A stretch of 64,000 bases of DNA, taken from NCBI GenBank assembly GCA_950106755.1, contig OX467089.1, forward strand, positions 29,741,345 to 29,805,344, in the 5' to 3' direction. Positions 9,650-31,659 of this stretch are shown here, in pieces (position 1 is the first letter of the stretch; the number at the start of each line of letters is the position of its first letter). The notes under the pieces were generated by a model. It searched no databases, was not told where the DNA came from, and was given only the letters and a program-made list of their open reading frames with translations. This DNA comes from Climacium dendroides (Eukaryota > Streptophyta > Bryopsida > Hypnales > Climaciaceae). The translations under genes were made by a program, and so were the position numbers.

Positions 9650-10805
9650 TTTTCTTCTAGTGAACTTGACTTGGGTTGGTTTCAAGGAACGCATTAGCGA
9701 CCGCTTCACTCCAAAATACCAAGACATTCGTGATGGAGTGGCACTTATAAGACTTAAGTAAACTGGGAGTCTTAGGGGTTATGTCTGGGAGTTTAATGCA
9801 CACTTGAATGTACTTCCAAGGCTAGATGAGCTAGCCAAGAAAATCATTTTCTTCAATGGGTTGCAAAGTTGGGCAGAGCGTGCATTGTTTAGAATGCCCC
9901 AACTTCCAGAGTCATGTGCGGAGTTGTTAAAGTTGGTTAAAAGGATTGGTGATGATGAAGGCCAAAACAAGAAGGCTAAAGATGGGCCTTCAACAAATGA
10001 GTCAAGTAAACACTCCAAGCGTAAGTTGAGGCATCATGTTTGGATGAAGAGCAAGCATGGTGGGGATGGAGCCAAGTCAAGTGGGCCAAAAGAAGGACAA
10101 GCTAAAGGCATTGACAAAGGGGGTGACAAAACCAAAAGGGATGTGAGCCAAATGACTTATTACAATTGTGGAGAGAAGAGCCACTTGTCCCGGGGTTGCC
10201 CCAAACCTAAGGTGAGTGTTCAAAATGCATGCTCTCACATTGGAGAGCATGTTCTTCAAGGTGGCTTCTTGGCTAAGGCAAATCAACCCAAATTGAGTCC
10301 CCGCTTGTTGTTCTTAAAAGGGTCCATAAGTAAGCATGATGTTTCACTCCTGGTGGATACAGGTGCAACTCACTCATTCGTGAGCCCAAGACTTGCTATG
10401 GAGTTGGGCTTGCAAATCAAGGAGTCTTGCAAGCCCATTAAAGTGCAATTTGCCAAGGGCAAGCCGCACAAGACAAGCAAGGTGGCAACAAATGTGGAAG
10501 TCAGGTGTGGAGAGTTCACCTTTGTGGAAGACTTCACGGTGTGTGATATAGATGGGGTAGACCTCATCCTAGGAAATACTTTCCTAGATACTTATGAAGT
10601 AGACATAAGAAGGCGGCCATCTTTGAAGGTGGTTGCCAATGTAGATGGCAAAGAGATAGAGTTAGAAATAACTAAGTCACCCAAGATGTTGGGGATTCAA
10701 ATCCATCTAGTAGTTTTGGAAGAACTTAGTGATACTAAATTCTTGGTTGTTATGCGTGCCGGTGTGGTTGTAGGGCAAAAGAAGTTGGCTAATAGGGCCA
10801 ATTCC
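9650..10805 (+). pseudogene. Ty3/gypsy gag-protease, 5' part
   Basis: Retrotransposon capsid protein and aspartic protease. From about 9650 the frame shows gag-like sequence broken by a stop (RFTPKYQDIRDG, then GSLRGYVWEFNAHLNVL). The longest open part starts at 9804. A zinc knuckle lies at about 10152 (YYNCGEKSHLSRGC), but the first Cys of the CX2CX4HX4C pattern is Tyr. The protease active site LVDTGATHSFVS is at about 10345. The element's 5' LTR and gag start are missing. The frame is interrupted at 10805 by the 20.85-kb MULE and resumes in the same frame at 31671, so this and the reverse transcriptase region at 31.7-34.2 kb are one element. Confidence 0.9.
10795..10805. repeat. Left target-site duplication of the MULE
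   Basis: GGGCCAATTCC, identical to 31660-31670. Mutator-like elements normally duplicate 8-11 bp. Removing the element and one copy of this word keeps the gypsy reading frame open across the junction. Confidence 0.93.
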
Positions 10806-11025
10806 AACGACGCTAGCGTGCGAGCAGGAGCGTGGAGCTTGTGAGCATGGAGCGTGGAGTTTGTGAGCATGGAGCGTGGAGTTTGTGAGCATGGAGTCCC
10901 CAAACCCAAAAAAATAGAAATTTGTACTCCCAAATGTTTTTTCTCCAATTTTTTTGTGAAAAAAGAGGAGAAATGTCTAATTTTTGACCTATTACCGTGT
11001 CCCCTATAACCGTGGATTTGATGAA
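10806..11025. repeat. MULE left terminal inverted repeat
   Basis: Similar in inverted orientation to 31500-31659. The best match is in the outer 45 bp. Further inward both ends share a poly-T/AAAAC tract and a TAACCGTGGATTTG / TGACCGTGGACTTG block. The outer part also holds a 21-bp tandem repeat, GAGCATGGAGCGTGGAGTTT, at about 10844-10890. Confidence 0.75.
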
Positions 11026-11034
11026 AATTTATTG

Positions 11035-11455
11035 GAAATTGGGGGGCAATTCCATCACTCACCGTATTTTTTTCCCTAGAGGTTCTGAAAGTCAAGTACC
11101 ACCAATGAACACAATTTCATCTACTAATTTTAATGGGGGGGGCAATTCCATCATTCCCCATTTTTTTTTCCTAGAGGTAGTGAAAGTCAAGTACCACCGC
11201 TGAACACAAATTCATTCACTAATTTTAATGGGGGGCCAATGCCATTATTCACGATATTTTTTTTCCTAGAGGTTGTAAAAGCCAAGCAACTCTAGTGGTG
11301 ACTACAAATTCATCCACGAATTTAGGGTGGGGGGCCAATGCCATTATTCACGATATTTTTTTTCCTACAAGTTGTGAAAGCCAAGCAACTCCAGTGAACA
11401 CATAATCCTCCACAATTTTAAATGAAGGACAACTCCTTCACTCACCGTTTTCTCC
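11035..11455. repeat. MULE subterminal tandem repeat, ~97 bp, five units
   Basis: Units begin near 11041, 11137, 11233, 11330 and 11426 with GGGGGGCAATTCCATCACTC or variants. Each contains CCTAGAGGTTGTGAAAG and CAAGTACCACC- or CAAGCAACTC-type phrases. There is no matching array at the right end, so the two subterminal regions are asymmetric. Confidence 0.8.
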
Positions 11456-11828
11456 CCTAATTATGGAGTTGGGTAAATACAAAGTACACATGCCATAATT
11501 AATCCTAAGCAAAAAGCGAGAGAACTGTTGGGAATATAATATGCCATACAGTTAAGGCCAATCCCTATTCCCCCGAACAATTCTCTAGCCATGACTGTTC
11601 ATTGAAGATGACAGCTTATATAGTGACTCATTTTTAAATGTCATTCGTTATGGGGCAACTGAAGGCTGCGAAATAAGCTCTGAACATATGCTTTAGGACA
11701 CATAAATAGGAACCCTACAACATTGGTCTCTTCACTCTATCCCACAGAAACTGTGCATCAAATCATTTCAATTGTCATATACAAAAGAACGCATTACAAT
11801 TGAAATGCATTGTAAACTGTGGCCATGT
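11456..11828. other. Noncoding, 3' flank of MULE transposase
   Basis: No gene seen. It would contain the 3' UTR and poly(A) signal of the minus-strand transposase gene. Confidence 0.5.
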
Positions 11829-13217
11829 CTATTCTGGAAGTGTGATCATTCCAGCTCGAACTAGGAGTTCTTTCAACTCATTGAAGCTATAATTTGGTGC
11901 ATGAATGAATTTGTCTTTGTTGACATCCATTTTGCAGAAGTACCTGTATAAGTAGTACAAGTGCTTGCAATTGACGTATTGCTGCCGACCTCCAATAGCA
12001 GACACTGTCATATTTACGAAATCTGGGCACGTGCAAGTGGGAAATTGGCCCATTGTAACTCGATATGCATTTTTGTTAGAATCAGGCCCTGTCTCCAACT
12101 CCACAATCGCACCAAGGCCTGGAAGAGGGAGTAGTGTTACTCCTACAATTTGCCCTCTAACATTACCTGCACTTTCCCACTTATTCCGTTGTTCGGCAGT
12201 AGGTACATTTGCAATCCTTCGAATGGCTCTACTGTTCCTCACTGTTGGATACACATCCGAGTTCTTCGGTAACGGCTGCTCATACAAAATAGGATTAAAA
12301 ACCTTCGACATGTTGAACAACCGACGTGGTGACAAGACTGGTCGTTCTTGGAGTCGAAATCCTGCGTGCTGTAGCAACAATGTCTCCTCTCGGTTTAAGT
12401 TAGTTCCGGACAAGACTGGCCAAACCTTCGGCACCTCCGGCCAATCAAGAACCCACTTCCGCTTTGTTCCTTTCACGCATCGTTCAATGTCATCCCAACA
12501 AAACCAGAAATCAGCCACCACCTCTCGCTTACTCCCGTACTCTTCTTTTCGACCATGGTAAGTAGGAGCTAGAGTATCCTTCTTCCCTTTTGCAATTTTG
12601 CTGGTGCACTTGATGTTCGATCTATGTTGTTGGGCTTGGCATCTTGCGTTGGATTTGTGGCTGATTCTAGCAATGTGCCATTTTGATGTGTTGCAATCGC
12701 TTTCAAATGCTACCGCAACATGACGAGAAGTATTTGGCTGAAGTTGTTTACCCTTGTCTTCAGAAGATTGAGAGGCACTTGTGGTGGACCTCCTTCTCAT
12801 GCGGGGTTGAGAAAAGTTGATCTTGTCCGGTCTATGGGAGTCTCCTGCATCACCAATGGGCACGTCCAATTTCCTCTTAGTGCTCCCAAAAATCTCTTCT
12901 CCTTCCAAGTGTGGCACTCTAATTCCCACACCCTCTGCTCCAGGCAATGTGTTCAATGCCTCTGCGATTGTTTTGGGATCTCCACTTCTCCTAGCAGCTC
13001 TCAACCTCAGCTCCCCCTTTGATGGCCCTGATCCTGATGCATATCCCTTCAAGTATGCACGGTAGTTGGTCATTTGCATCCAAGCCCGGATACTATCATC
13101 ACATGTGGCGTCAAACAAGTTGTTTCCTCGTTTTCCAGACATTTGTAGCCACTTGTTATGCACCGTTTCGGATAAATTGCATGATGGTAAGTCCAACATC
13201 TCCTCCAAGTTTAATTT
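11829..13217 (-). CDS. Intact 3' exon of the MULE transposase (SWIM)
   Basis: The last exon is still fully open, about 462 codons, starting after the acceptor TTTGTAG at 13218. The codon phase matches the donor at 13701. It holds the conserved MULE C-terminal region (DATCDDSIRAWMQ, then GDPKTIAEALNTLPGAEG), a basic middle with HVAVAFESDCNTSKWHIARI, and the SWIM zinc finger near the end, a presumed DNA- or protein-contact module of MULE transposases. It cannot be made as part of a full protein here because the upstream exon is broken. Confidence 0.8.
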   Translation of the reverse strand, partial: KLNLEEMLDLPSCNLSETVHNKWLQMSGKRGNNLFDATCDDSIRAWMQMTNYRAYLKGYASGSGPSKGELRLRAARRSGDPKTIAEALNTLPGAEGVGIRVPHLEGEEIFGSTKRKLDVPIGDAGDSHRPDKINFSQPRMRRRSTTSASQSSEDKGKQLQPNTSRHVAVAFESDCNTSKWHIARISHKSNARCQAQQHRSNIKCTSKIAKGKKDTLAPTYHGRKEEYGSKREVVADFWFCWDDIERCVKGTKRKWVLDWPEVPKVWPVLSGTNLNREETLLLQHAGFRLQERPVLSPRRLFNMSKVFNPILYEQPLPKNSDVYPTVRNSRAIRRIANVPTAEQRNKWESAGNVRGQIVGVTLLPLPGLGAIVELETGPDSNKNAYRVTMGQFPTCTCPDFVNMTVSAIGGRQQYVNCKHLYYLYRYFCKMDVNKDKFIHAPNYSFNELKELLVRAGMITLPE

Positions 13218-13478
13218 CTACAAATTCCACGCAAGAGAATAATAGAGTTAGTAATTCATATGTACAATTGTGTGAACTTCCAAATTCCTGACCGTGTATC
13301 TTGGTTCCTTGTGTAATTCTAGAAGGTGACACCCTTGTAATCACTCCTATTGGTAGGAATATAATTATGCCTGTAGACATAATGAAGTCATTTCTTCCAA
13401 CTTCTTTTCCTGTAAAGAAAAATATTTAGCATTTGCTATTACCAACACTCAATTATCCATTACATTTAACGAAAATGA

Positions 13479-13550
13479 GGGGGTCATGATGACACCTCTA
13501 AAACGTCAGTCGGATCCGAGGCATGTTTCTATGGTGTTTGTAGGACCCCC
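13479..13550. repeat. 72-bp palindrome P1 (in transposase intron)
   Basis: GGGGGTCA, 20 bp, CAGTCGGATCCGAGGC, 20 bp, GGACCCCC. It has the same 8-20-16-20-8 design as the other six copies and is one of the more diverged. It lies within the intron 13218-13701 of the transposase gene. Confidence 0.9.
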
Positions 13551-15859
13551 CCATTTTGGTAGTGTGGAGGAAAATATTCCAAAATCCCAATAAAAATAAA
13601 AGACAAAATTAAAATGTTGTCTAGAATGTAGAGTTTCCTATAACAAAATGAGCTTCAAAACCTTTAGTCATAGTACACATTAAAATTCACAATTCACTCA
13701 CCATGTCCATGAAGCCTCCCCATTGACGGTATCGGAAATGCCAAAACGCTAGCCAATGGTCTAGGTGATGTAGACCTTCTTCACCAGCAGCTCCAGAGGA
13801 CAACCACCAAGACCGTATTGCGAGGTAGCGGACCTCAGCTTGGACCATGTTTTCCGAATCTTTGTATTGTTTACACAAAGTAATATGTTGCTGTTGGAAT
13901 GCTTCCTTGATGTACTTCTACGTATGCTTGTGAAGAGAGGTACTCCAATGCAACAAACATGTCCTCTCGCGATTCTCCATTTCATCATTAGCAGACCACT
14001 GCCATATACAATGTGAACCGCATTCCAGTTGGCCATGGCGCTATCTGCCACGAATCCCTTAAAGTTAGGATTTGCCACTCCATGGCGATGCATGACAGCG
14101 TTCAGGCTCCGTCAAAATTGTACTTGAACTTCTGTATCTTCGGATTGCATATCACACATTGCAATAGTCATCACCTTTTTATACTCTGTATCATACACGT
14201 GGCAAGCCATTGTGGTCCAGTCCTTCACGCGCTTCACATGGTCAAACATCAACCACGCATTTTCCAAGTCCCCTATTGGCTGCATCCGCCTGACGAGGTC
14301 CATTCCACTTCCGGGTCCTTCTGTAAGCATCTTGAAAATGTATACCTTTTCCTTGCCTTGACCTGGGAAGACGCTGTCATGTATGAACTCAAACTTCGAT
14401 TCTCTCTTCATGGTCATAATGTTGTCGATTATCCCTCCATGGTTGTTAGAACGGAAAGAAGAGATGACGTTGCGAATACTTGGACTACTCAAATATTGGA
14501 AGCGATCCATGACCTCCTCCATTTCCTCTGCTTTCAACATCTTCTTCTCCCCCTCTCCATTGTGAAATAGATAGTTCCCGAGAAAGTCTTTACTAGCAGA
14601 GAGAACAATTGCGGAGTTTGTGGCTGTGGGTGTTTTGGCCACTTGCTCCGCGATGAGTCCGCAAATCACTTTAGTAGAATCTCTATACATACCTCTAGCA
14701 ACAGGGTGGCCATGCTCTCCAAGGTGAATAGCAGCCCTAGTCATTTCTGGATTATCAGTATACGCAAAGTATATCCTAGCCTTGCATGTACCAAGACACG
14801 TCGGTGGCATCTTGCAAACCTTACAAACTAGGGTGGATTCTTTTGGGGGACACCCGCCAACAGTGAAAGGAAACACAGTGTAGCCACTCCACTCAGTTTC
14901 ATTTTGCCATGAGGCTCTTTTCAAATATTGACAGTTGGCACTCTCACAAACGAGATGGCCAGCGCAGTAGGACTTACGGAATTTGAGGTTGTTAGAGTTG
15001 TGGATGTTTGTGGTCACGAGCTTGCACCACGGATGTCCATCGTAGCGCTTGTCCATTCCTTCCAAGTGCTTGGCCCCCGTTGAAGATGAAGATGTTCCAC
15101 AAGGAGGCAATTCGAAGATGACATCCCCGTCGTATACAGGTGGGAGAAACGGAACCCTTTGGTGCTTCACAGTGCTCAAATCCATTGTTGACAATTCATT
15201 TCGAGAGCGATGCATAGTGGCAAGTCTTCTCAAACACTCCATGATGCTTGCTTTTGCTTGTACCTGTGTTTGTATTGGAGGTAGTGACATTGACAAATTA
15301 GAGAGACTTCTTGACGGGGTACTAGATAGTGATTTCCCAAGCCTGTCTCTCCAGATGCAATCTGGACAGAACAACTTTGATTTGGAGCATGGACATTGGG
15401 AGACTCTCTTTCAGATTCGGTGGACAACTCTATAATTGGATCTAATCCCTCCACTTTCACATCAAGAAGTACTGGAGGCATGAGTGGGACTCGTAGAGCT
15501 TTTCTAGTTGGAGTAGGTGATAGGGCAGAAGGACTACATGGCATATCCACTGTAGAATTATCTGATTGGCGACTCTGGATTTCTGTAGACGCACCTAGCA
15601 TGGAGAGTGGAAGTCCATACGCTCTGTAGTTCCCAGGAGTAAGATACCAACAACACGTTCCATCCTCCTCCGACTTCACTAGCGGAATAGACTAAAGCAC
15701 TTCACCTGATTCCGACCTTTTTTCTTCCTCGACATAGATGGAGGACTCTACAAATTTGAATCGGACGTGTAGGAGGTGACAAGAGACTCTAGCGCGTCCA
15801 TCATCACCAACCGGGAATACAAGAGGAACGTCATAACCATCAACTCTCATCGATGCCAT

Positions 15860-18800
15860 TGTTGCAACTGGAGGAGGCACTCAAAGAATGCCGGAAATCT
15901 AAATGCAAGCAAGGAGAAGAGGTAAACAACAACAAAGCTTTGGCTTTTGAATGATTAAGATTTCGGAAATCCTTTAGTCTAGGGTAGTCTTACAGACTCA
16001 GGGTTGAACCAAATAATTGTGTCGTATTCTTCTTCCTCAGACATTTACTTTCATGACATGGCAATTGCCATTAAACAATAATGTCTTCCATGTACATTGA
16101 ATTCAAAAAACTACTTCACTATTAAACCTAGTGAAGCTCCCCTAGAAATCAATTAATTACATCCTAACGAATCCCTAGGATTGCAGTGCCATTCAAAACA
16201 AAATATTTAAAGGTTTTCTCTTCTCAATTAATGTGAATGCTCATTACAAATGCACACGTCAAATGTCCTTGTCATACATAGGTAAAAACAATTTCAGAAA
16301 AGTCTATTCCATGTAATCACACATTAGCACTCCTCTAATCTAATTTCTTTCAACACCTCCAATATAGATCAAAATGAAAAATGAAAACGAAAGAAAACTC
16401 CTCCTCTCACATTCCTATAAGTGAACTGTACAAATTGCATTCAATATGTAGTTGAACATTCAATTAGACTAATCACATCAGAATCCAGAGACCCTACTTT
16501 GAAGTTCCGCAATCCCAAATTATAATATTTCAGATTGGAGTATAAATATGTAAAATTACCTACAAGTAACTTACCTGCTGAAGGTCTAAAATATGGGGCA
16601 AATATCATAATACTATTATACTGCTATACATTCCTTGAAATGATTTCATGCACAAAGAAAAACATACCAAGTCTGCAGGGCCTATTCTCAATACAAAAAT
16701 TGAGAATTAGGTCTTTGACAATCTACAGAATTTTGTTTCTTAATGCACAGGATTGTCGTCAAGCTCCAGCATGTGCGAGTATTGAAGCTTGTGCATACAG
16801 AATTAGGCCCCTCTTTAATTGCATCGCCGTCAGTTTGGATTGGCGGCATCATCTTTAATGTAGGCTCCGCCTGCACTATCAGTGAACCTCTAGATTTGAA
16901 TTCGTGGGCACATTAAGGAACCTGCCACGCGCCGACTTCTGCATCCTCTTGTCATGTGTGTCAGAATTACTAAATGAGGATGTGGCGGCCCATGCAAGCA
17001 TAGTACTGTGTAGAATATAAGAACCACCACTTGTATTATTTTTCCTCATTCAACTGGTTTGGCTTTCATTGTTTGTGTCGTAGTTGAGAGCGTTGATGTA
17101 TAGGCTATCTGAGCTCCCCCTTCATGCTTGTAGACAACTCAGTTAAGGAGTTCATTAGTCTGAGACCTAGAAAGAGAGGGAAGAGACGAGGTTCCATATA
17201 TTTCTCATCGTCCAAGGCATTACGGCAATCTAGAATGACGAGAGGAGGGAGAGCGGCACAAAAGACTACCGAACCAGTACCAGTCGATTTGCGGAGAGTT
17301 CTTCGATATGAAGGTGGGAGTACTGCTCGTGAGGAGGATGTGCATGCTGCCGATGTTGACGCAACGCTAGAGGTGTCCTTGTTAAATCCAAGTTCCCAAT
17401 GCGGTAGACGGGCAGCGGACGCCATGATAAGAAGCTTTGAAACTGCTCATTTTGTATTCCTTCTTTCCTTTTCGTGGTTTAGTAGGAACGCAAGAGTATA
17501 GACAATTTTCTGGCAAACTCTAGTACGTCATTGTAACGGTCTTATTGTATAAGTAGTAGGAATAAGCAGATTGCAAGACATGGGTAGCTAAAAACCTTCT
17601 ATTCATTCAGACCCGCTCAGTTTGATTGTAAAAGAAGTTTTTCTTCAAGAATAGAGATTTGCTTTCAAAATCTTAGTTAGCCCCTTAGCACTTTAGTGAA
17701 AGTGTCGAATATAGAAGTGTCAATTTGGTCAAATTCCCTATCCTTTTATACAATCAGTTGCATTCCATCAATGCCAAGGTGTGAAGTACAATGAATTTGA
17801 TAGCTTCTCATGTTACAATAACTTTTGTGAATGCGCACTTCAGTGTGTTTAGGCGATATCTAGATGTTCATGTCACCTCCGATTCTAAAGAACATTGATT
17901 TCCAAATTTCGAAGACATTGTGGTGAATGATAGGATTTTAAAAAAAAAAATAATCACTTCATTTCTTACCATGACAGCGCTCCTTTAGAATTACAGACTC
18001 AACATTGGTAAAAGTATGGAAGCTCTCTCAACACCTTCATTGCCAGACTTTGAAAAGAAATAACTTCGTTTTATTGAAGACAATGATAACCCCTTACATT
18101 GTTTCTCTAGGAAATGCATCTGTAGAGTGCCTTAGGCATTTAGGAGAAAATAATATAAATCTCTCCTTTCAATAGACCGAAGGGGCAATTTAGCATTCCT
18201 ATTGCTTATTTTAGATTGCGATTGTCAACTTCGTTAGGATTTTCAAAACATCTTTTGGTGACTTATTTTGACTTGAACGTGTCATCTGAGGCCACGTGTC
18301 AACATCAGTAGCTATCCCATCTCCTGACAATCCAAATTCAAAATGGACCGTTGATTTTGACGAGTCATCCACGGCTCCAGATTTCTACCATATCCAAAAA
18401 AACTCGAGGAAATGGATCTCCTCGTTATTCTGTAGATTGTTCCTGCGATGCAATCCGGAATGTGGTATGTGCATTCCTTTTCTAAATTTCCCGTGACCTT
18501 CATCAGAGAGGGCATCTCAGGTAGATTAATTTTTAGCAATTTCTATTTTCCTCTGATGTTGTGTACTTCCGAAATTCCGAGATTTGGGAGGACTGACTGC
18601 GTCATCTCGCCGAATCATTTTCTGGAAATTTCAAATACACTCGGACGTGCTCATTCTTCAACCGCGCGAGGTCGCGAGGAATCCTAAATTGATGGCAGGA
18701 GACCTTATCCGAAGGTGCATGATTCCTAAAATTAGAATGGAGATTCCAAAATTGCGGTTTCTGGGGCAGCATAGCGCGCTCTAGCCTTGCCCTTGCGACT

Positions 18801-19323
18801 GCACTGGCCACTGGCACTACCATTCCCTCTGTGAATGCTTGGTTTTCCTCATTTGAGTTCCTTTTGCACGTTCTTGGTAGCAGCACGAGATGACGAGGAC
18901 TACACGGAGCCGCGCGGGCGGAGTTCAAGATGAAGGTGTCGTTCTTTGGCTGGACAGGAGAATCGCCAAGGTATTCTTCAAATTCTCTCTTTCATTCAAT
19001 CGGTGACCTCATGAACTGTTGATTTTCCTTGGTTCTCCACCATTTTTGGCTTCTAAGTTGGAACCAGTTTGTTGCATTCGTCCTGTTTCTATCACGACTT
19101 TGGGGCGCTGTTCAGAATGGGATTTGAAAACCTCGATGCCACTTAGAGAAGCTCAAATCCAAAATGGGTTCTGTAAACTTCCATTCCGAAATTTCTTAAA
19201 AATGATTGCCACAACAGTCTTCCCGTAATCCTCATCGTGCTCGACCTATCCGCCACACGGGGTTCCAAAGAATTGTTTCTAGATTCGAGATTCTCCACTA
19301 GTTTCCCTGATGCTCAGAGCTGA
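15860..19323. other. Intergenic region between divergent MULE genes
   Basis: About 3.5 kb with no gene I can support. A 125-codon plus-strand frame at 17124-17501 (start MLVDNSVKEFISLRPRKRG) is the longest candidate, but it has no recognisable domain and overlaps an equally long antisense frame. The promoter and 5' UTR of the minus-strand transposase must lie near 15860-16100. Confidence 0.5.
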
Positions 19324-19915
19324 GGGGGTCCCGCCGAGAGCTCCAGGTGCAGCCTCGGATCCGAGGCATGTTGCCGGTGAGGCACTGGGACCCCCACTTT
19401 TTTGGAAAATTCGTTCGTGTTTGATAATTTCTTGGGACTGGTTCCCCTCGGTGATGGATGTTGACCCCCTCCAGACGTGGAATTCTCTTGAATCCCACTG
19501 ATTCAAGAAGGGCGCTTCCACGTGAGGAATCTAACTGCTCTTGATTTGGAAATTTCTCTTGTGAGGCTATGCAACTGCATGTTCACCTTCTAGGAGTCAG
19601 AATTCGATTGCGTGTCCCCCATCCCGATTCCTTGAATTCTGGACTCCTTGTTGGTAATTCAAGTCCACCTCCGAGATAATCTTGGCATCCTTACCTGCTT
19701 CCACAGCTAGACGGTTGAGGCTAATCTGCCTTGATGTCCACATCAAACGAAATTCGGTGGTCTTATTTTTGTTGACTGAAATGCCCACAGGGGATTGTTA
19801 TGTAGACCACCGTAATCTAAGCGGCTTGTAATCTCAGAGCTGAGGGGGTCCCGCCGAGAGCTCCAGGTGCAGCCTCGGATTCGAGGCATGTTGCCGATGA
19901 GGCACTGGGACCCCT
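19324..19915. repeat. 72-bp palindromes P2 and P3
   Basis: P2 is 19324-19395 and P3 is 19844-19915. They are near-identical, including a preceding CTCAGAGCTGA, so one is a recent duplicate. Outer boxes are GGGGGTCC/GGACCCCC (P3 ends in CCCCT) and the centre is GCCTCGGATCCGAGGC (P3 has GGATTC). The two 20-bp spacers of each copy pair poorly, unlike those of P4 and P6. Confidence 0.92.
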
Positions 19916-20576
19916 ACTTTTTCTTAAACTTGTCGGATTCCCATTTTATGAGATCGGTAACCCTACCCAGTTTGTTATCGATCCCGACAGTCACTGGATA
20001 TCCAAGGATTCATCCTTGTCATCACAAGCTTCCCGATCCCCGTGAGAAATCTTACTGTTTTCCTGTTGAATCTAGTTTTTATGAGCTACAGCATCCGCTT
20101 GTGGATCTTCCGAGGGCTAGTGCAATGAATTAATACTACGTAACGAGTACTGATTTTGTGAATCAGCAAATATACTGAACTTGTGAGCAAGTACTGAACT
20201 TGTGAGTATTGATAAGGTTTTAGATAACAGAACTATAGTCTTGGCAGGGTCAATCGGGTGATCCGGTTTCCGGTGGACGGAGCTAGGTGGACCGGTGACC
20301 AGGATCCGGTTCATCATTGAAATTGTTGGTTTTCCTGAAGGATTGCCTTTGCTGGTTGGTGATCACGTTCAACTTTAGAGAGTTTGTTGATTTTGAAGAT
20401 TCTTGCACTAATTGATTATCCTATTCAATTTTATAGTGATTAATGATGATGATACATTTCGTGTTTTCTGTCTAGTAACTGTTCATTTCTATAGTATTTG
20501 AAGATCTAGCCAGTCTATGCATTGTTGTGGTTTAGCGTTGGACCATGTCAAACTCTTATTCTTATTTTAAAAGTAT

Positions 20577-20970
20577 GGGGGTCCTAGTGAGTGCGACCAA
20601 ACAAGCCTTGGATCCGAGGCTTGTTTGGTGGCACTCACTAGGACCCCCTTTTTTCTTAAGAATTGTGTGGATTATGATGAAAATGTCAATCATTACTTTG
20701 GGACAAGGCCTTACGTTAATTCTTTTTGTAAGAAAATAGGGGTCCTAGTGAGTGCCATTAAACAAGCCTCGGATCCGAGGCTTTTCTACTGGCACTCATT
20801 GGAACCCCCTCAATTTTAAAAACCGTATAGATCATGCTAACTTATGGCTTTGATTAGTTTTGGAACATGCCTTAGGTTTAATCTTATTTCAAAAATAAGG
20901 GGGTCCTAGTGAGTGCCCCCAACCAAGCCTCGGATCCGAGGCTTGTTTGGAGGCACTCAATAGGACCCCC
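20577..20970. repeat. 72-bp palindromes P4, P5 and P6
   Basis: P4 20577-20648, P5 20738-20809 and P6 20899-20970, spaced almost evenly (161 bp centre to centre). Outer box GGGGGTCC, 20-bp spacer, GCCTCGGATCCGAGGC (P4 has one change), 20-bp spacer, GGACCCCC. Here the spacers pair too (TAGTGAGTGC with GCACTCACTA), so P4 and P6 are nearly perfect 72-bp palindromes. A-rich sequence precedes and T-rich sequence follows each copy. Confidence 0.95.
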
Positions 20971-21550
20971 TTATTTTCATGGGATTGTGATTATAATGTT
21001 TATTAGTTATTGCTATTAGCTTTGAAACTTGTACTTTGATTCTTCTTTTTCTAGCAATAATTTGATTCTGTTGTAAAGAAGATAGTGTTTAGTGATCCTA
21101 ATGATGGTCACGATGTATGAAAATCTCTTGGATTGTAGAAGAGTTCAGGAATCCTGCCAATTCGTAGTGTACTCAGTGATCCTGTTTATTCTTACAATGT
21201 TTGGTAACCAGGCTTACTCTTATTGGTTTGGGTGGTCCTCGTGATTCTTCTAATGCTCGGTGATCTTGTTGATTCGTCTAGTGTTTGGTAATGTTCATCA
21301 TTCTTACTATGATTTATGATCCTTATGATTGTCTAGAAAGCATAAAAAAATGGATACGATCGATTACATTGTACCTTCTATGTCTAAAACCATGTACATC
21401 TTCACCAGCATTGGTAGAACTCTTTTATTTCTTTTGTACTTTGAAACTTTACTTTCATTATACAAAACTCCTCATTCCTCAAGCTCTATGTGGCTCTACC
21501 TGATTCTGATGAGGCACTTCTAACTTCAATAATGTTGCAATGTAAAGAAG
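20971..21550. other. Upstream region of ParB/methyltransferase-like gene
   Basis: No gene seen. It presumably contains the promoter, 5' UTR and perhaps a first coding exon, because the exon beginning near 21551 has no in-frame ATG near its start. TGATCCT / TGGTGATC-type short phrases recur at 21090-21270. Confidence 0.45.
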
Positions 21551-24500
21551 GTTCGACGTGGCCAAAATGTCTCTTCATCGACCTTGGCACCTCCTCATGT
21601 CATGGGCATCCATGAGGCAGGACCATCTCAGGCTCTCACACCAGTGAAGGAGACTCTAGAGGTTCTTTACGATTCTGATGAAGACAAAGACACTGAGGAA
21701 GATCAAGTTGATGAAGAGCAATTGGTAAGTTTTGATGATGTTATGGACGTAGCTGATCACGCTGTCGATGCCTTTGAGAGTTCTAAACTCAGTCGGGTGA
21801 GTGACACCCGAGCACCAAGACATGCACGCCACTTTACGCCCGCACAGAATCATAGACGTCTTCAAGTTATACTTGAGATGGCTAGAAACCGCCCACTGCA
21901 GTGTATGTCTCCCGAGAGTTCGGACACTCAGTATTCCTCAAAGACGCAGGGGTCCATCACCATTGATGGGCCACCGATGGAGGAGACCCACGATTGTGCA
22001 CGTAGTTCGCTCCAAGGTTTAGAAGAAGTCGTCATCATCCATCTCAGCTCTGACTCAAAGGATGATGTAGAGATAGAGTGATCCCATTGTATTGGATTTC
22101 CTTCAAAGACACATCGCTTGTGAGCGTGTCTTATACAATGCATGTTCTTTGTTACTAAATCTTTTGCCTGAGCTGCGTCATTTCTCTTGCAATCATTTGT
22201 TTTTAGAATCCCAGTATGTTTCTGTTTGTAGGGGAATTTGGATCCATTGATAAAAGTCCAAGCATGCTGCTTAGTTTTATGTTTGAGCCTTGCAGATGGA
22301 TGCGACTCCTACAAACCTGTGGCACGAGGAGACTATTCTGGAAACGCCAAACACTGATGATTCAATGCAACCGCCCATTGCAGGTGAAGGTGATGGTGAA
22401 GAAGAGGGAGACGCAATGGAGGAGGACGTTCTGGATGACCTATTGCTGGCCGATAATAAGGACTTGTTGGAAGACGATCTCCGACAATATCACAAGGTGG
22501 ACTCCGTGAATACCATTGCTTCATTGAGGATGAAGCCACCTCACCTCTTTCGACTCCAAATCCCGCTTTGCTGAATGGTTCCCATGCCTATGGTGAGACC
22601 TACCCTCTCGTGTGATCTTGATTTCCTGGAGCATGAGTTCAGCAAGGGTTACAGAGAAGGAGCGGCAGTTTTCTACGTCACTACTACAGATGAGGCTGGA
22701 GAAAGCTCACAGTTCACAGAAGAGGAGATAGCGAAGTGGGATCCATTGTGGAAGTCAAAAAATGACGCCTTCAATGCTAGTGTCGAATCCAAACCCGAGT
22801 TGAGGTTTTTGAAGAACATTAAATTCTATGTTTGTGATGGTAATCACAGACTCATCTCGTGGATGAGTTACATTACCAAAAAGCACTCGAAATACGAGGA
22901 GTGGCATTACGCAGTGGATTCCATTGTACTAGATACCAAGGGCAAGACCGAGCTAGTCATGCATGTCATGCATGACATTAACAAGTAAGTGTGTAATCTC
23001 CCTCTTTGGAATTCTAATGCCTCAGTTGATTTCTCAAGGGGGGGCACTCTGTGACATCCATTTATTTATGTTCAAATTCCATATGTTATCCATTGTTGTT
23101 AACTCAACATATCATTTATTTTCTTCACATCCTTTCTTGGAAAATTTATTTGTATGTTGCGTAACACTAAGTGAACATTTTCTTTGTCAACTCTATAACA
23201 TGCATTTCTTCATATTCAAATTGTTTATGTTTTATGGATTTACCTTCTCAAAGGTCTACATTTTCTTTTTAAAAATAGACACACTTAACACAACACTATT
23301 ATTACATACCCTATAGTTGTTAGAAGACATAGAATGGTATTTTAGGACCCTGGAGCATTAAAGGACAAATTATACTGCTTATCTCAAATGTTTTTTAGGC
23401 ACCCTATTAGTTGATTGCATGTAGTATTTGACTGTTGCCGCTCACTTCAGCCCCCAAGTTAGGTTGTTCTTATAGTTTGTGATATGTTGCAATTTCTGGA
23501 TACAACAATAACTGAAATCGCTTCTGTGCATATCAGGTCCACGGAAGACTCGCACGTGAAGACCAATTTGGTGCACACGTTATACAGGATTCAAAAATAT
23601 GGTCTCCTTACTATTGAGCGGTTCAAAGAGATGCTCAGGCCATCGGAGGTCCGACTGTGTGGGGCACACAAAGCTAAAAAGACTTGGTATTCTATGCCAC
23701 TACAAGTCTTCACGTCGTTTGTTTTCAGGGTAAGAATCTTTGTGAATGCTTCTCCCTTCGTTTCTATTGTATTTGTCTGTACCATTTTATTATACAATCA
23801 TATATGTGTAATTCTTTTCTGTCACACCTTTGCAGCAAGAAATTGCCCAATCAGCAGATGCAACAGGGCGGAGGTACAATGAGATGACACCGGAGGACGA
23901 CAAAACTCCTGAGGAACTGGCGCATGCCATGAGATCCAGAGCTCATGAGAAGACCAGTAAACTGAACCTCAAAATGTCTAAGTTGGTTGCGGTGGCGAAT
24001 CCAGCTAACAAGCAAGGTTTTCTAGATGAGGTGATTTTATGACCTACATCATAAACTGAATCTATTGATGTCATGCAAACCTCAGAATCTAACATCCTCT
24101 GCTTTCCTTTTGTTGACCAGATTGAGAAACATTGGAGTTCCAATGAGGTTCCGGAGATGACTCTAGAGAAGCTCCAAATGGTGGCCACTTGCAATACCAC
24201 GGCAGATCACAAGATCAAATTCCTGAAGTGGTGGAACTCCTCTACACCATCACGTGATGCTAGACGTTTTCCGCCTAGGCCAGTGTCAGAGACACTACTT
24301 GGTCCTTTCTTGAACCGTTGTGTTTGGTACGTAGGGGTAAGTGATTACCTATTCATGTAATTCAACTTGAAAGCCATCATAGTTCATATTCACTAGGATA
24401 TTGAGAAATTAGAATTCTTGAAAGGCAGTGCATATCATATGATTTTGGTTTTGGCATCTCTTTCTACAGATTGAAGATGCAGTTGTACAATACTTCGAAG

Positions 24501-24836
24501 AAGTTGTCAAGCAAGACAACATCATCATCAATATGAACGTTCTGCTTCAACCAGAAACCTTACCGGAATACTTGGAAGGGTGGAGGAGGAAAATTTGGGA
24601 TCACGGGTTCTTGGCTCATTTTAGAGGAGCTAAGTACTTCAAGAAAAGCGACAACTTCAACACTTATGAGGGGTCCCAACAGGTAGTGAAGAGGGTCCTT
24701 TATCGGTATGTCTTTAACTGGATTAAAAAATATTCATTTGGAAGTGACTATTTGAATTAAAAATCTCTTGTCATTTGGCTAAAAATACATTGTTGAAGCA
24801 GGAAACCTATTAGAGATGAACGAAGGGAAAAAAATA

Positions 24837-24908
24837 GGGGGTCCTTAGGCTACCTGTAGAACATGCCTCGGATCCGAGGCACGCTCTAGAAGTAGTTGGG
24901 GGACCCCC
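24837..24908. repeat. 72-bp palindrome P7 (in intron)
   Basis: Same 8-20-16-20-8 design with perfect outer boxes and a perfect GCCTCGGATCCGAGGC centre. The 20-bp spacers pair only partly. It lies in the intron 24706-25072 of the ParB/methyltransferase-like gene. Confidence 0.93.
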
Positions 24909-26639
24909 ATTTCTGTCCTTTGAAAGGTCTACAATTTAATTTTTTGATCTTCTATTTCTTGAGACATAAGAAATGTTGCTTTGAAGCACATGTACACGAG
25001 ATTGAAATTCTTCTTCTGTCTAATTTGATTTTTACAATTCGTGCTTACCATTCTTTGTTTATCATGATGCAGCTACTTCAAGTTTGAACTGGAAGGAAAA
25101 GGAGCCATCCAGAGGGCAGACCTTCCTCCATTCCTTTCGGTCTTCCTAGATCGCAATTCCGCAAGTTGCATATACACGGCAAATCAGCTCAAAACATTTA
25201 CCACGGCTCATCTAAATGGCGGTGGATGGTACATTGATTGCCCTATATTGTACACGCATCCATCGGAGGTACAACTCCGCGATTCCTTGAAGGACATTGG
25301 AGCGGTGGACATGGATGTCGATGAGTTTGCGGGCCTCACCGAAGATCAAAGGAGCAAGGCAATTGAAAGGAGGAACAACGCTGACAAGAAGAAAGCGGAT
25401 CGTCTACAAATTGCTTTGGATAACAAGCAAAAAAAGGAGGCAGAGCATTTGGTAAAGATAGAAGAGAAGGAGAAGGAAAAGCAGAAGGAGAAGGAGGAGA
25501 AAGCAAAGGCAAAGGGGAAGAAAAAAGATGATGGTGATATCGTCGTTCCTACATCATCAGCGGTCGATCAGAGCTCGCAGTTGGTGCAGGGAAGTCAGAG
25601 TGGGATGAAGAGGAAGGCTGTGCTTGCCGAGTGGACGGAGGATATGGTGACACAAGGCACGCAAGTGGTTATATTAGATGATGACGACGTCAAGTCGGAG
25701 GAACTAATCTTGAATGTATCCATTGTTGACATCATGGACAATTTGGAGAGTTCACCACCTAATTCTTATATTGAGGTCATGGACTTCATTCGAAAGGTGT
25801 GTGGCAACATGAAGTTCAGTTTGTAACTTCATAGGATTTCTTCATGAACAAATAGTTTCATTTTTTATCTTCTAATAACATGTACAATCACTGGACTGTA
25901 GGCAAATGCAGGAAAACTTCGTTCATTGAATGGCAGGGTGAGCCAAGAGCCTTTGGTGGATCTTATTATTTTTGATTGCCAAGAGAACCTGCCGTACCAC
26001 TCATCTCTGAAAAGCATGTTCCGGCATGGAACTCGGACCCAATATGTGCAGGAATGCAAAATGCATTTCACTTCGCCGAGGAGAGCTTACAAGACAACAG
26101 CTGCATTCTTGTATTTCACTCATACAGCCTTCAATTGCGGCGTATGTTTGCGGGACTAAAGAACGTCTTCAAGAAGTTGGTGCTGAAGAAAGAGTGGTTG
26201 GCATTCAACCAATTGGACCTAGCGTCGGGTATTACACCTAGTCAGATGGTAAGTTTTTCTAAATGTATAGCGCGCATGTCATTTGGTTTAGCGGCATTCT
26301 CCCTTGCACTAAACCATTTTTTGCCTTTTTGCAGACTGTGAAGTTCGGAGTCACCCTTTTTGTGAAGGATTTGGGTGAGAAAAAAAAATTAGCTTTCACA
26401 TTCAGGCAGACTGAGGCCATGACGAAAGCAAAGTGGAATCTTCAGAGGAAGGACATGGTCATCAATTATATCACCGAGGAGACAATGTTAGTCAACAAAG
26501 AATCAAAAAAGCCTTGGCGCGGGCTGCGAGAGAAAGATGCAAGGTTCCTACAATTTTTCATCGAAGGTTGCTCGGATGAAGAAGATGTAGTTTTGGACTG
26601 CACCACTGCTACAGGTGATTTAATACTTTGAAATGAGAG

Positions 26640-29600
26640 TGTCATAGCACAAGGAAGCACAAATCCTACCCTTAGGTGTTAAATTGATGTAAAACACCTT
26701 AGATGACTCGTGTATCGTTCACTCAGGATTTCAACGTTAGTTTCCTCAAGATATCCGGAATAGGATTCGGAAACACCAAACCCAAGCAAAACCGGATCTA
26801 AATATTTGCAACATAAAGCTCTCTCAATACCCTCTCCTCTCCATATTCCAATTCCCTTACATCCACTCCGAATCTTCCACCAGTAATCGAACAAGGAGGA
26901 TTGTCATAATCCTGTACTTCTCTCAATCCGGATCAATTTAGACGGATGCGAAATCGGAAAGAGGATTTCTATCCGGTTATAGTAACTCACAAATTCTCAG
27001 TTTTACCTCTACCAAGAGGGTTCCGCTCTTTGGTTTTAGGAAGGGAACGTAAACCCTACCCTTCAAACGTGTTTAGAGTGAAATGAAGATCTACTTTAAA
27101 TAACAACAACAAACACCAGAATAGGAAATAGTTACTTCCTCACAACTAATCCGGATGTTGATCCAGACTAGCAGGTCACTCAGGAAACCCCTATTATCCT
27201 CTCAGTACTACAACGACAGACCTATCCGGATAGAATTCCAAGAGCGTGATCCGGCACCCGATAACTAAGAGATCCTAACTACCTTCCTATTCCTCTCTTC
27301 CGGATTCAATAGAACCTCATCAGACGTCAGTTGGCGTTCGTTCTCCCTCCTGAAGAATTCACCCAACCTAAGAATGGCTATCCTACTCAGAAGACACCCA
27401 AGGAACTTCAGTAACTAGAACTCCCTCTCAATACACAAAGTTTTCCTTAACCAAACCTCAATGCTCTCAAAATCAGATCCTAGACAGAATCCGGGGGCTA
27501 CTTGTCTTCCTCCACACCTGCAAACCAGCTATCCGCACTAAACAATGGTTCTAGCATTGCACGGCATACCAACACAGAACTTAGCCTTTTCAGGCCAGCA
27601 TTTATGAAGTGGAAATCTGAAATCAATTTGCAAAGTGTTAAAAAAACACAAATATGAAAACACACTCGCCCGGGGCTTCAAGCTAACTTCAGCCCCCTAA
27701 ATACACAACTCCCAAGGAACCCTAAAGGTCCCCAGGAATAAAACCAAAGGACAGGAGAATGACAGGTGTCATTCCTTATCCTTCTAAGTTGACTTTCCTA
27801 CCAACCCCATCCGATCCGTAAAATGTGGATCTCAGATCCTAAAAATCCGGAAAGTGCAGTCCAAGTGCATGCACCTCAAAAGCACCTCCCAAGCTACTTC
27901 CTACTTACCAAAAACTTGGGTTTTCGGCTGACCATGCTAGGATCGCTTCCCAGAAACTTCCTAACTACTTTCCTACCTATTTCCTAGCCTTCTTTGGAGA
28001 AGGTTCTTCTAACTTTGATGCCCCCTTCCTAGCTGGCTGTTTCCTACTGGCTGACGGTTTCCCACTCAAGGGTGGCTTCCCTTTAGATGGTGTTGAAGCT
28101 TTCCCCTTGAACTTCGTTGGTGAGATTTGCTCAGGTTCCGACTCCTCTTCTGATCCGGTGTCTTCCGATTCCTCTTCTCCGGATCTCGACAAACTTTCCT
28201 CTTGCTCGGACTGGCTTGGAGATTCGTCCTCCGCAGATTGTTGGCTCCTTGGAGGCACGTCTCTTCCTCTGATGGGAGTAACCTTCTTCACAGTCTTCTT
28301 GGCGGTTGAGGGTTGAGAGCCTTTACTCGGTGGTGTGCCTAGGTCGGATTCCGACTTCCGAATTTGAGTCTTCGATCCGGATCCGTGCACTGATCCTTCT
28401 TTCCTCCCCTCCATACTTTTAGACGTTGGTGTCAACTCTTCCTCCTGCCTTTCCTACTTGGCTGGCGTCTTCGTTGGAGTCTTTGTGGACGCATCCTTCT
28501 TGGCTGGCTCCATCTCCTCATCCTCCTTCTTTATTCCGGATTCCGGAAACTGTTCTACTTGGTGAAGAACATCTCGGACTTCAAACATGAACTTTTCCAT
28601 TTCTTCGGAATACTCTGCCAACACCATGACAGCCTTACCTGCGGCTTCCGGTCCTACCTTATGGATCCTCTCATCATAGAGTTTGGCTTTGTTTACAACA
28701 TCCGCAGTGTTGGAAACAAAGGCCCCAACTCTCCTAATGACCCCCTTAAACTCTGAGGTAAGCCGTTCCACCTCTCTCTTCTTTTCCTCACCCTTCTCAA
28801 TTTGCTGCTGGAGATCCGCATTCCTCTTAGTCAACTCCTTGATGCGGGTTTCCCACTTCCGGTTTTCACTATCCCGGAGCAACCTTTCTACTCTCTCTGC
28901 GAGCTCTGACACTTTGATCCCTCCAAGCAGTCCACATACATTCCTCACTGCTCCTCTCTCCGTGTCAAATTCCTCCCGGACTCTCCCTAAATCCGAAATG
29001 ATCCTCCCCAAAGTATCCTCTCCCAGAACTTCTGATTCCGGCGAGGCTTTCCCTTTTCCTTTGGATCCCCTCTTAGAAGAGCCTGACACCCTTTCAGCCT
29101 CTATTCTCCTTTCGGAAAGATCCTTTCCTCTCTCTGAGGATTCCCCCTCAGATCCCTCATCTGGTCCTTCCTTTCTCTCTTCTTCCTCCTCCTCTTGGGG
29201 TGGGGTAAGATTAAGTTTCACTAGGGTGACTGCAGCCTTGTACATGGTCTTCTCTGAAGTTTTCAGAGTACTTAGGGAGTCATACAAGTGAAAGAGGAAT
29301 GGCCCAATGGGGGTGGCCTTTGCGTTTCCTAGGGCGTTTACCATCTTTCCTACCAGATCTTTCACTATCCCTCCCCAAAACACTTTCCTTTCTCCACTCA
29401 ACGCTCCGAAGATCGTATTGGCCCACGTCACCGTGACCCGGTTTGGCCGTTCCGGATACAGGATTGGTACTATAAATTCTAACATCCTCCTCTCTCTTGC
29501 TACCTTGCAATCTGCTACTGCGTAGCCATCCTTAGGGTGAGGAGGATTAGAGAATTTACCTTCCGCGAATTTGTAAACCCGCGAAGCCATCCCCTCTCCA

Positions 29601-30497
29601 GATCGAGGAAAGTTGTAGACCCTCTTCCAGATGTCCATAGTCCACTTTCCGAGCAGAGCTCAAACGGTCTTGATCCATTCGTTCGACTACTCATTCATCA
29701 GCTCCCGGATCATTTCCTCGCTCTTTAAACTCCATGGTCGGCATAGGAATCCCGCACACCCCAATTGGCTCAGATCCTCCTCCAGTTGCTTCCTCTCTCT
29801 GTCATCCTTCGGAATCACTGGACAGATGCTCTTGGTCTTGAAAGAAGATGACCCGCTTGCTTCCACCTTCACCATGATTGCAGAATTCTCCAAAACACTC
29901 AAACCTCCTACCCTTTTCTTACCACAGCTCCCGGTCAATCCTCTTCCTCTCCACGACAGGATCCGGAAAGTAAGATTACCCAATCCTCTCACACCTCTAA
30001 AGACAAACCTCGCTCTAAGAGTGCTCCAAACCACAAAGACACAATGAGGTTTGAGGAACCAAACCCTTGCGTATCCTTTCCTGGCAGTCACAGCCGTTGG
30101 GAAAGTAGCCGTTTCCGCAATCATCGCGGAGGAATCTAGCCGTTGAACGGTCCTCCGTGATGTATGGAATTACCGTTGGATCCGAGATTTCCTCTTCCCG
30201 TCCCGATAATCTTCCGATAGCGTGCGGATGCGTTTACTTCCGACCCCGGTATATTTTTCCAATCCCTATTTAGTTCCTTGGATGCGGATCCGGTTCCGGA
30301 TCTTTAGGAAAACAGGAAACATATAATATCTTTCTTAACCAAATTATCTATCTACTACTAATCCAATAGTGAGGTAGAGTTAATATTGGTAATATGATTA
30401 GTTTACCATTTTGTAAATCAAAAAATTTTACCAATGTCAACTCTTTACTTCTAAATTCTATATAACCAACTTCATCCTCTCATTTTGGTCTACGACA
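26640..30497 (-). mobile_element. LTR-type unit, family 2, copy 1 (3,858 bp)
   Basis: The plus-strand ends are TGTCATAGCAC and CTACGACA, a TG...CA pair with an inverted TGTC(A/G)TAG terminus. It is flanked by the 5-bp direct repeat GAGAG (26635-26639 and 30498-30502), so it is one precise insertion, made into the last intron of the ParB/methyltransferase-like gene. It contains one gag-like gene on the minus strand and no pol, and I see no internal pair of LTRs. The simplest reading is a solo LTR that carries a coding region. A short non-autonomous element is the alternative. Copies of the same family start at 36318 and 60902. Confidence 0.85.
27977..29875 (-). pseudogene. Gag-like protein of LTR family 2, copy 1
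   Basis: The frame starts at ATG 29875 (MVKVEASGSSSFKTKS). The N-terminal globular part contains LEEDLSQLGCAGFLCRPW, then RRMLEFIVPILYPERP and NTIFGALSGERKVFWGGIV, and PFLFHLYDSL. An acidic stretch, coiled-coil-like segments (about 28700-28950) and a Ser/Lys/Pro-rich tail ending in PKKARK follow. The layout suggests a structural, nucleic-acid-binding protein like Gag. The globular part loosely recalls plant 'putative transposon protein' (PF20167-type) domains, with low confidence. In-frame stops: TAG at about 29684, a TGA shortly after, and TAG at 28454-28456. Confidence 0.65.
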
Positions 30498-31142
30498 GAG
30501 AGTCCTAAATTAAAATGTTTGTGTGTATGTAAAATCTGTGAACTTCTAATGCTCGCATAGTTGTACTATAGGTGCATCGATTCTTGCATGTCGTGGCACT
30601 GGACGGCATATTGTGGCTTTGGAGGAGGATGAGAATATCTTCAAGGGGGTTCTCTTGCTAATGAAAAAAGCCGCTCCAGTGCAAGAAATGACACAAGCTC
30701 CGGCAAAAGTTTTTGCCGCTCTTGATCTGGATGCCGTGCACGTGGAACCAATGGTGTTTACACGCAACATTAGACCTAATAAGTAAGTTTCACTTTTGGA
30801 AGACATGTAGATTTTTGTATTCAACAAGTATTGCATTTCATAAATCAATATGACTAACGTTGCATTGTTTGTTTTTGAAGGAACAAAGGAGTGATGGATG
30901 AACATTGTGTGAAGAAGATCAGAAGACTTATTTTGAGTCCCGAGAAGTCTTACGATCTTCCAGTGTATGCCGAGAAGATGGCATCACAGTATGAATGACA
31001 TGGTTGTAGAGAGCCTAAGCCTTCCAAACCCAAGTATGCTGCAAACGTAGTTCATTTTCTAGACGTTTCAGCTTCTGAAGGTGAAGAGACTCCAGAGTCA
31101 TCCTCCAGTGAGGTTTCTATGGCCAACTCCACCGCCACTTAG

Positions 31143-31499
31143 ACTCATAAGATTGACGTATCTTATGAGTTGAATTATGTGTATTGATTTCTATGTGGAT
31201 TTGATTTTGTGTGTTTTATGGCTACAAGCTGCAAGCATTGTGCTTCTCGTTTGATATTCAATGTACATGAGAAATGAAGTAAAGAAAAATGATCTTCAAT
31301 GGTAAACAATCAATAGTTGATAAAAAAAAAGATGCTAGATCTTGGGCTCATTCATTTTCCTTCCCATTCTTAGACCACTTCATGTGTGACAACAAATTAA
31401 TTCTTATTTATGTGAAAAATGTTCTCCACAATAGTGGTAGTGCCTCTAAGAGTCCACAAATGACCCTTAACTTACATACATATAATTATGAATGACATC
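31143..31499. other. 3' flank of the MULE cargo gene
   Basis: Noncoding, presumed 3' UTR and spacer before the right terminal inverted repeat. No gene seen. Confidence 0.5.
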
Positions 31500-31659
31500 C
31501 ACGGTCATAGAACCTCGGTTGACTCCAAGTCCACGGTCATGGGTTAATCACAACTTCCCCCTATCATATACAAATTTTTCCACAAGTTTTCTCATCAAAA
31601 AAATTTCCCGCTCACAAGCTCACAGGCTCCTGCTCCAAGCTCGCACAATAGCAACCCTG
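31500..31659. repeat. MULE right terminal inverted repeat
   Basis: Reverse complement of the left end in outline: GCTCACAAGCTC, GCTCCTGCTCC and GCTCGCACAATAGC match the left end's GAGCTTGTGAGC, AGGAGC and GCTAGCGTGCGAGC, with a 6-9 bp length difference between blocks. CCACGGTCAT phrases further in match the left-end CCGTGGAT block. Confidence 0.75.

Follow-up and report, generated by a model that had tools for sequence, protein, structure and literature searches.

A Mutator-like element (MULE) occupies positions 10805..31659 (no strand assigned) of the window, by which we mean the whole 64-kb stretch of DNA analysed; this span includes a later 3857-bp insertion. The element is bordered by a 10-bp target duplication, at 10795..10804 on the left and at 31660..31669 on the right (+ strand), and duplications of the same length were seen by eye at three other copies. 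This length falls within the range of MULE target duplications, which are about 8–11 bp. Compared as candidate terminal inverted repeats, the outermost 20 bp of the two element ends agree at 14 positions (counted by eye). The transposase gene lies on the − strand (11832..15874), with introns and with coding stretches that are conserved with family C, and its fold was taken from a relative, P0010. The model of the P0010 transposase (pLDDT 72.7) matched ISCth4, which we take to be a member of the IS256 family, at an E value of 2.5e-4 and with a low whole-length TM-score of 0.17. As modelled through this relative, the enzyme is an RNase-H-type transposase of the MULE/IS256 kind. Pfam gave no match for the transposase pieces of the window or for three of five relatives, and chance-level matches only for the other two.

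The second gene (17231..31144, + strand) has about 12 exons, of which we infer the start and exon 1, and it is broken in the window copy. A conserved first exon was found near 17231–17434, and a second-gene exon is widely conserved, with 282 relatives. Among the matches listed for relatives of the transposase and of the second gene, eight contigs of equal size recur. No full-length relative of the 1033-aa model of the second protein was found at E ≤ 0.001 among 7988 scored. Exons 9–11 (25905..30782, + strand, with the 3857-bp insertion within an intron) encode a DNA-methyltransferase-like part. The second protein matched N6_N4_Mtase at an E value of 9.1e-4 (19.7 bits, below the cut-off of 26.7), and CcrM, PRK13699 and PRK11524 at 1.9e-4, 1.6e-3 and 0.023, respectively, all far under the curated cut-offs. 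N6/N4 DNA methyltransferases have a catalytic motif of the DPPY type; the candidate motif here, assigned by eye, reads DCQE in both the family C model and the window. Because of this DCQE we term the product methyltransferase-like and not an active enzyme; judging by its sequence, the end of the protein is apparently a degenerate N6/N4 DNA-methyltransferase-like domain.

The preliminary description had also named a ParB-like protein for binding tests. An exon at 22290..22984 (+ strand) bears a very weak ParB-type resemblance (DGNHR), and phrog_1033 (ParB-like) matched 11 of 45 second-protein members, with a best E value of 0.03. However, the unrelated families Phage_tube_C (0.0035) and KMP11 (0.0071) outscored this match, and a fold search with the second protein gave no match at E ≤ 0.001 (poor model, pLDDT 51). 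DUF1015 and DndB matched six and one of the 45 members, respectively, and a ribosomal protein at 0.087 was the only match in a PDB profile search. The start of the second protein can thus be called ParB-like only very weakly.

Seven 72-bp dyads (no strand assigned) with an 8-20-16-20-8 layout lie within the window, as had been described. P1 (13479..13550) is in a transposase intron, at the same intron place as in families B and C, and P7 (24837..24908) is in a second-gene intron, between exons 24470–24705 and 25074–25796. P2 (19324..19395) and P3 (19844..19915) are followed by P4 (20577..20648), P5 (20738..20809) and P6 (20899..20970), which form an array of 161-bp units; in two other copies, L039 and L047, the palindromes are spaced by 162 bp. 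Some of the seven had been assigned to a divergent intergenic region, which is probably wrong: given the conserved exon near 17231–17434, P2–P6 probably belong to the first intron of the second gene, and all seven palindromes are then probably intronic.

From P1 to P7, the box mismatches per 32 letters were 4, 0, 2, 1, 2, 0 and 0, the boxes of P2, P6 and P7 being exact, and the eighth-best site in the window had 14 of 32 box letters mismatched. No half-site with at most 4 of 16 mismatches was found outside P1–P7 in the 64-kb window, and hence none at the element ends. Even the outermost palindrome lies 2674 bp from the nearer end of the element, so the palindromes are not end sites. A dyad scan blind to the boxes, run over the window and seven joined stretches with a threshold of at least 27 of 36 arm pairs (P1–P3 score under it), returned 30 dyads, and all 30 were box palindromes. 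No duplicated flanks were seen by eye around the palindromes. In L034, L035 and L037, one arm appears by eye to be shifted by a base (3 of the 38 palindromes of L029–L048).

Distribution and conservation of the dyads

The host genome contained 396 exact cores and 440 exact half-patterns of outer box, N20 and core (226 forward and 214 reverse, each fully exact palindrome being counted twice), against 0 for the control. At spacings of 21–51, the half-pattern had no match genome-wide, which supports the constant box spacing proposed in the preliminary description. A pattern of outer box (first G omitted), N20 and core had no match in viral contigs, and the collection of prokaryote genomes contained no exact match either.

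The proposed association of the pattern with this MULE family also held. Among the matches listed, the flanks of the palindrome loci matched this MULE group at 20 of 20 loci tested. Conversely, when 40 MULE copies were picked by their transposase alone, 36 carried the dyad at this same position in the intron, in register with at most 8 mismatches, the minimum for the reversed control being 15. Three of the others (L061, L070 and L081) had no dyad within the 231 bp examined, and the fourth (L062) has what looks like a dyad with an internal deletion, not in register at this threshold. A diverged MULE piece (~75% identical) to the left of A_C3_2 had no palindrome, and the family B counterpart of P7 had 7 box mismatches.

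Between lineages, the boxes are conserved. In a comparison of four lineages, from which the four copies lacking an in-register dyad were left out, the centre TCGGATCCGA was identical at 10 of 10 positions, the outer boxes at 12 of 16 and the spacers at 12 of 40. The fixed centre had been described as 16 bp long; in other lineages it is the 10 bp of TCGGATCCGA. In an alignment of the intron across families A, B and C, identical columns made up 22 of 32 in the boxes versus 123 of 409 elsewhere (p = 1.7e-5). Within lineages, box rates were not consistently below spacer or flank rates: substitutions per site in boxes, spacers and flanks were 0.039, 0.019 and 0.041 in lineage A, 0.012, 0 and 0.003 in B1, 0.031, 0.047 and 0.019 in B2, and 0.012, 0.028 and 0.030 in C.

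Spacer pairing

The spacers paired at 11, 3, 4, 19, 15, 17 and 11 of 20 positions in P1 to P7, which is above chance in five of the seven copies. Of the three copies whose spacers had been said hardly to pair, this is true of P2 and P3, but not of P7. Among the 31 unique copies of the largest cluster from intron 1, a copy's own arms out-paired re-dealt arms in 2000 of 2000 shuffles, and 46 compensatory cells were found at 9 pair positions, whereas the P1, P2/P3 and P7 clusters showed no compensatory change. One-sided transitions were G-U-compatible in 46 cases versus 33 others (p = 0.18), giving no RNA signature by this bias; clusters with fewer than four unique copies were left out of both the co-variation and the G-U tests. 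The co-variation in the main intron-1 cluster implies that a structure, or a process that homogenises the arms, is also at work there. Between lineages the spacers change where the boxes hold, but they are not free in general.

Proposed function and alternatives

Our preferred reading, which we hold tentatively, is that the palindromes, which sit within introns of the two genes of this MULE group, are conserved operators and candidates for protein binding, with the second-gene product as the likeliest reader and anti-silencing as the most probable effect. A symmetric protein, dimeric or larger, would hold the central TCGGATCCGA and the two GGGGGTCC boxes, which would lie about three helical turns out from the centre, one on each side. 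The likeliest candidate for this reader would be the product of the element's own second gene. With several such sites in each copy, the element's own copies would be tagged for regulation, of which anti-silencing, the role of VANC in VANDAL elements, is the most probable form. The layout of the dyads, their spacing, the tie to the MULE, the common intron position and the box conservation between lineages are observed; we infer protein binding, the identity of the binder and the anti-silencing effect.

The preliminary description had favoured a protein assembly over an RNA hairpin. The fixed spacing, the boxes held between lineages and the boxes kept in P2 and P3 despite hardly pairing arms speak for this, while the co-variation of the main intron-1 cluster speaks against it. 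If the transcribed dyad folded as an intronic hairpin, for small-RNA processing, splicing control or RNA binding, then the probably intronic position of all seven palindromes, the pairing at 11–19 of 20 in five of them and that co-variation would be accounted for. However, a pure hairpin does not account for the boxes kept in P2 and P3, and with neither compensatory change in the other three clusters nor a significant G-U excess we consider hairpins quite unlikely. Spacer co-variation is not something that a box-reading protein would require. Symmetric arms of changing sequence, and box constraint that is inconsistent within lineages, would also fit functionless palindromes whose symmetry hairpin-templated repair maintains, or mobile palindromes of tiny size. 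The same intron place in four lineages, the boxes kept there while spacers changed, and the lack of visible flank duplications make this decidedly improbable.

Sites for a host factor (insulators, enhancers or splicing-linked chromatin sites that the element picked up and kept) would agree with a dyad conserved in introns of both genes, and nothing here ties the dyad to an element protein. Since the flanks matched the MULE group at every locus tested, there was no sign of host genes using the site, and we regard host-factor sites as unlikely. MULE transposases bind DNA, and the dyads are confined, as far as tested, to elements with this transposase, as internal transposase sites would be, whether they served to regulate the transposase or to assemble the transpososome. 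The distance of the palindromes from the element ends, and the lack of half-sites there, make such sites very unlikely.

Comparison with known systems

For candidate operators read by an element protein there is precedent in motif arrays in noncoding MULE DNA to which an element protein binds, as excerpts of PMC5735166 and PMC10398659 describe them. Like the element here, the VANDAL elements of Arabidopsis are MULEs with an extra gene (VANC) and with family-specific noncoding motifs, including intronic ones and partly in tandem arrays, to which the intronic dyads and the 161-bp units of P4–P6 correspond. The motifs differ in kind: VANC motifs are 8–9 bp in one orientation, whereas the dyad is 72 bp with two box types. 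VANC has been shown to bind its motifs and to cause demethylation, whereas the candidate sites here are read from sequence; the only family matches of the second gene are methyltransferase-like and weakly ParB-type. If the preferred reading is true, sequence-specific control by MULEs of their own copies extends beyond the VANC type, a comparable job being done by another kind of protein together with a large two-box dyad. Among the titles and abstract openings listed from an open-licence library, none dealt with such dyads in MULEs. In PMC6446971, the terms 'ParB', 'methyltransferase' and 'moss' are absent and 'palindrom' is used solely for a software tool. The sharp definition of the site makes its binding and function directly testable, and the dyad can readily serve to mark members of this group of MULEs.

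Retrotransposons with captured C5 DNA methyltransferases are likewise mobile elements that bear a gene of the methyltransferase type (excerpt of PMC5890265), but those are C5-cytosine enzymes, whereas the MULE here has an apparently degenerate N6/N4-type domain. VirB of Shigella, a ParB-family anti-silencing protein, and ParB–parS also use a palindromic site (excerpt of PMC10653881). Those systems are bacterial, whereas here the second-gene product is a ParB candidate and the dyad lacks an exact prokaryotic match, as above. A bolder reading, which we think quite improbable, is a partition-like anti-silencing system in a eukaryotic transposon, in which a ParB-like, methyltransferase-derived protein would load at parS-like intronic dyads and keep silencing chromatin off the element's own copies, as VirB does in bacteria. 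In that reading, the GGATCC at the dyad centre may be a remnant of the former recognition site of the methyltransferase.

The seven dyads and their setting

Seven 72-bp dyads of an 8-20-16-20-8 design (outer box, spacer, core, spacer, outer box) had been described in the window, and all were recovered at the positions claimed: P1 (13479–13550), P2 (19324–19395), P3 (19844–19915), P4 (20577–20648), P5 (20738–20809), P6 (20899–20970) and P7 (24837–24908). Their boxes carry 4, 0, 2, 1, 2, 0 and 0 mismatches out of 32, respectively; the eighth-best site in the 64-kb window has 14, and a window scan found no half-sites with ≤4 mismatches apart from P1–P7. In a box-blind scan with 36-bp arms, covering the window and seven joined stretches and having a threshold that P1–P3 do not reach, every one of the 30 dyads obtained was a box palindrome.

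P1 is flanked by two conserved transposase exons and P7 by two exons of the second gene of the Mutator-like element (MULE), in keeping with the placement of the dyads in introns or the divergent intergenic region. For P2–P6, the intronic alternative probably applies: a conserved exon near 17231–17434, which has donor sites in the B and C families of the MULE group, puts them within the predicted intron 1 of the second gene. Two loci of a more distant A-like subfamily (L039 and L047) hold arrays of three and four palindromes at 162-bp spacing, a sign that tandem duplication multiplies the dyads. At family C loci L032, L036, L037, L040, L042 and L044, the palindrome flanks match the element on both strands, suggesting that paired dyads sit in a larger inverted-repeat layout.

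Genome-wide distribution and association with the MULE

The exact 16-bp core occurs 396 times in the 412.6-Mb host genome (control, 0). The exact half-pattern (outer box–N20–core) gave 226 + 214 matches at spacing 20 and none at spacings 21–51 in this genome, in support of a fixed box spacing. The proposed check for association with the MULE was positive in two samples. At 20 of 20 loci, fetched for holding the core and taken from among the matches listed, 52–100% of the flanking sequence beyond the palindromes matches MULE copies. A palindrome-independent sample was drawn from a transposase exon search in which 92 of 1572 candidates were scored, using 231 bp at the place of P1 from rows 34–73 (40 of the 92; identity 86–95%). 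The dyad was present in exact register with ≤8 of 32 mismatches in 36 of these 40 copies, while the minimum for the reversed control was 15.

Conservation between and within lineages

The 36 dyad-bearing copies split into four lineages (11, 9, 8 and 8), whose consensuses agree at 10/10 central, 12/16 outer and 12/40 spacer columns. The position of the dyad in the fetched stretch varies between copies from 73 to 97, and the 72-bp length is constant. When introns of families A, B and C were aligned, all three families shared the same base at 22 of the 32 box columns, compared with 123 of the 409 remaining columns (p = 1.7e-5, for columns that are not independent and with the family B core partly changed). 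Clustering of 82 dyads by spacer gave nine clusters, whose consensuses differ more in the spacers (0.62 per site) than in the boxes (0.11 per site); an exact core was the criterion for fetching 38 of these dyads, and this biases the comparison toward box conservation. Within lineages, the numbers of substitutions per site (box, spacer and flank, in that order) were 0.039, 0.019 and 0.041 (A), 0.012, 0 and 0.003 (B1), 0.031, 0.047 and 0.019 (B2), and 0.012, 0.028 and 0.030 (C). These rates reveal no consistent box constraint inside the four lineages, which fits decay of copies after insertion, with constraint showing between lineages only.

Protein recognition or arm pairing

The preliminary description favoured a protein assembly over an RNA hairpin, and the arms bear on this in both directions. 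Paired spacer positions (of 20) number 11, 3, 4, 19, 15, 17 and 11 from P1 to P7, so that only P2 and P3 hardly pair; P7, earlier grouped with them, has 11 pairs, as does P1, a count with a chance of ~0.004 under a simple 1-in-4 model. No compensatory change was seen in the clusters of P1, P2/P3, P7 and the family C intron. In the largest cluster, which has 31 unique dyads, own arms pair at 16.45/20 and crossed arms at 14.62, with 0 of 2000 shuffles as high (kinship ignored), and there are 46 compensatory cells at nine positions, 93 one-sided and 17 changed on both sides and unpaired. Two smaller symmetric clusters lean likewise (49 and 196 of 2000 shuffles, kinship ignored). A G-U bias among one-sided transitions was not significant (46 to 33, p = 0.18). 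The view that spacers keep length and not sequence agrees with the 12/40 consensus columns but not with the co-varying arms of the largest cluster. Some dyads keep their boxes without pairing, explicable if a protein reads the boxes; others keep pairing while their sequence changes, which may reflect arm homogenisation, a cruciform or a hairpin.

The conserved two-box dyad of one MULE group is real. Its most likely role, which we propose tentatively, is that of a putative operator, which an element-encoded regulator would read through the two boxes. Literature searches, covering open-licence papers and the terms chosen, listed no work on such dyads in MULEs. VANDAL MULEs, among which we do not place this group, resemble it in anatomy; their VANC proteins bind family-specific noncoding motifs, leading to methylation loss (PMC5735166, PMC10398659). 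VirB is a bacterial ParB-family anti-silencer acting at a palindrome (PMC10653881).

The candidate reader

The last part of the second gene matches the DNA methyltransferase entries N6_N4_Mtase (E 9.1e-4), CcrM (1.9e-4), PRK13699 (1.6e-3) and PRK11524 (0.023), all under curated cut-offs, and its candidate catalytic motif reads DCQE by eye. The dyad centre contains GGATCC, a known N4-cytosine methyltransferase site; this is no more than a hint. The DGNHR-bearing exon has 282 relatives and a very weak ParB resemblance (phrog_1033 matched in 11 of 45 members, best E 0.03); its DUF1015 and DndB matches in Pfam were outscored by unrelated families, and neither a predicted model nor searches by fold and against PDB supported ParB likeness. 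Eight putative shared contigs (equal sizes) among listed relatives of the transposase and the second gene suggest that the two travel together.

The element and its genes

The MULE copy in the window (10805–31659) lies between two GGGCCAATTC copies; over the terminal 20 bp its two ends match at 14 positions, and three further copies have 10-bp duplications (both by eye). Since it has a gag-protease ORF (9762–10844, Pfam) on one side and, judged by eye, an ORF resembling reverse transcriptase (from 31775) on the other, the copy is probably inside a Gypsy-type element. A 74-bp unit occurs four times, spaced 95–99 bp, near the left end (11067–11429).

The transposase gene runs leftward, and its three window pieces had no Pfam match. 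The predicted structure of a transposase relative, P0010 (pLDDT 72.7), matches ISCth4 (E 2.5e-4), an IS256-family transposase, which supports the MULE label. P0010 also gave weak matches to DIX, an oligomerising fold (E 0.042), probably in the N-terminal part (residues about 1–90), where strands occur in the model. The second gene runs rightward with about 12 exons, modelled from a family C copy and then mapped onto the window; exon 1, missed by blastn, was recovered by protein comparison. The window copy of this gene is defective: it carries a stop and a frameshift, and one splice donor is altered.

One second-gene intron carries a 3857-bp insertion (26641–30497) with GAGAGT at both flanks, missing from three compared A copies; a second copy at 60903–64000 is 91% identical over 3.1 kb. 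A family B copy (B_C2_05, L026–L028 joined) has a separate insertion in the P7 intron (14042–17621 of the joined stretch); the protein encoded there shares 31% identity with the one from the insertion in the window. Similar proteins, by eye, at 5776 and 60141 (ORFs 5776–8274, including a DUF7869 ORF at 6922–8274, and 60141–60806) probably represent another repeated element family.
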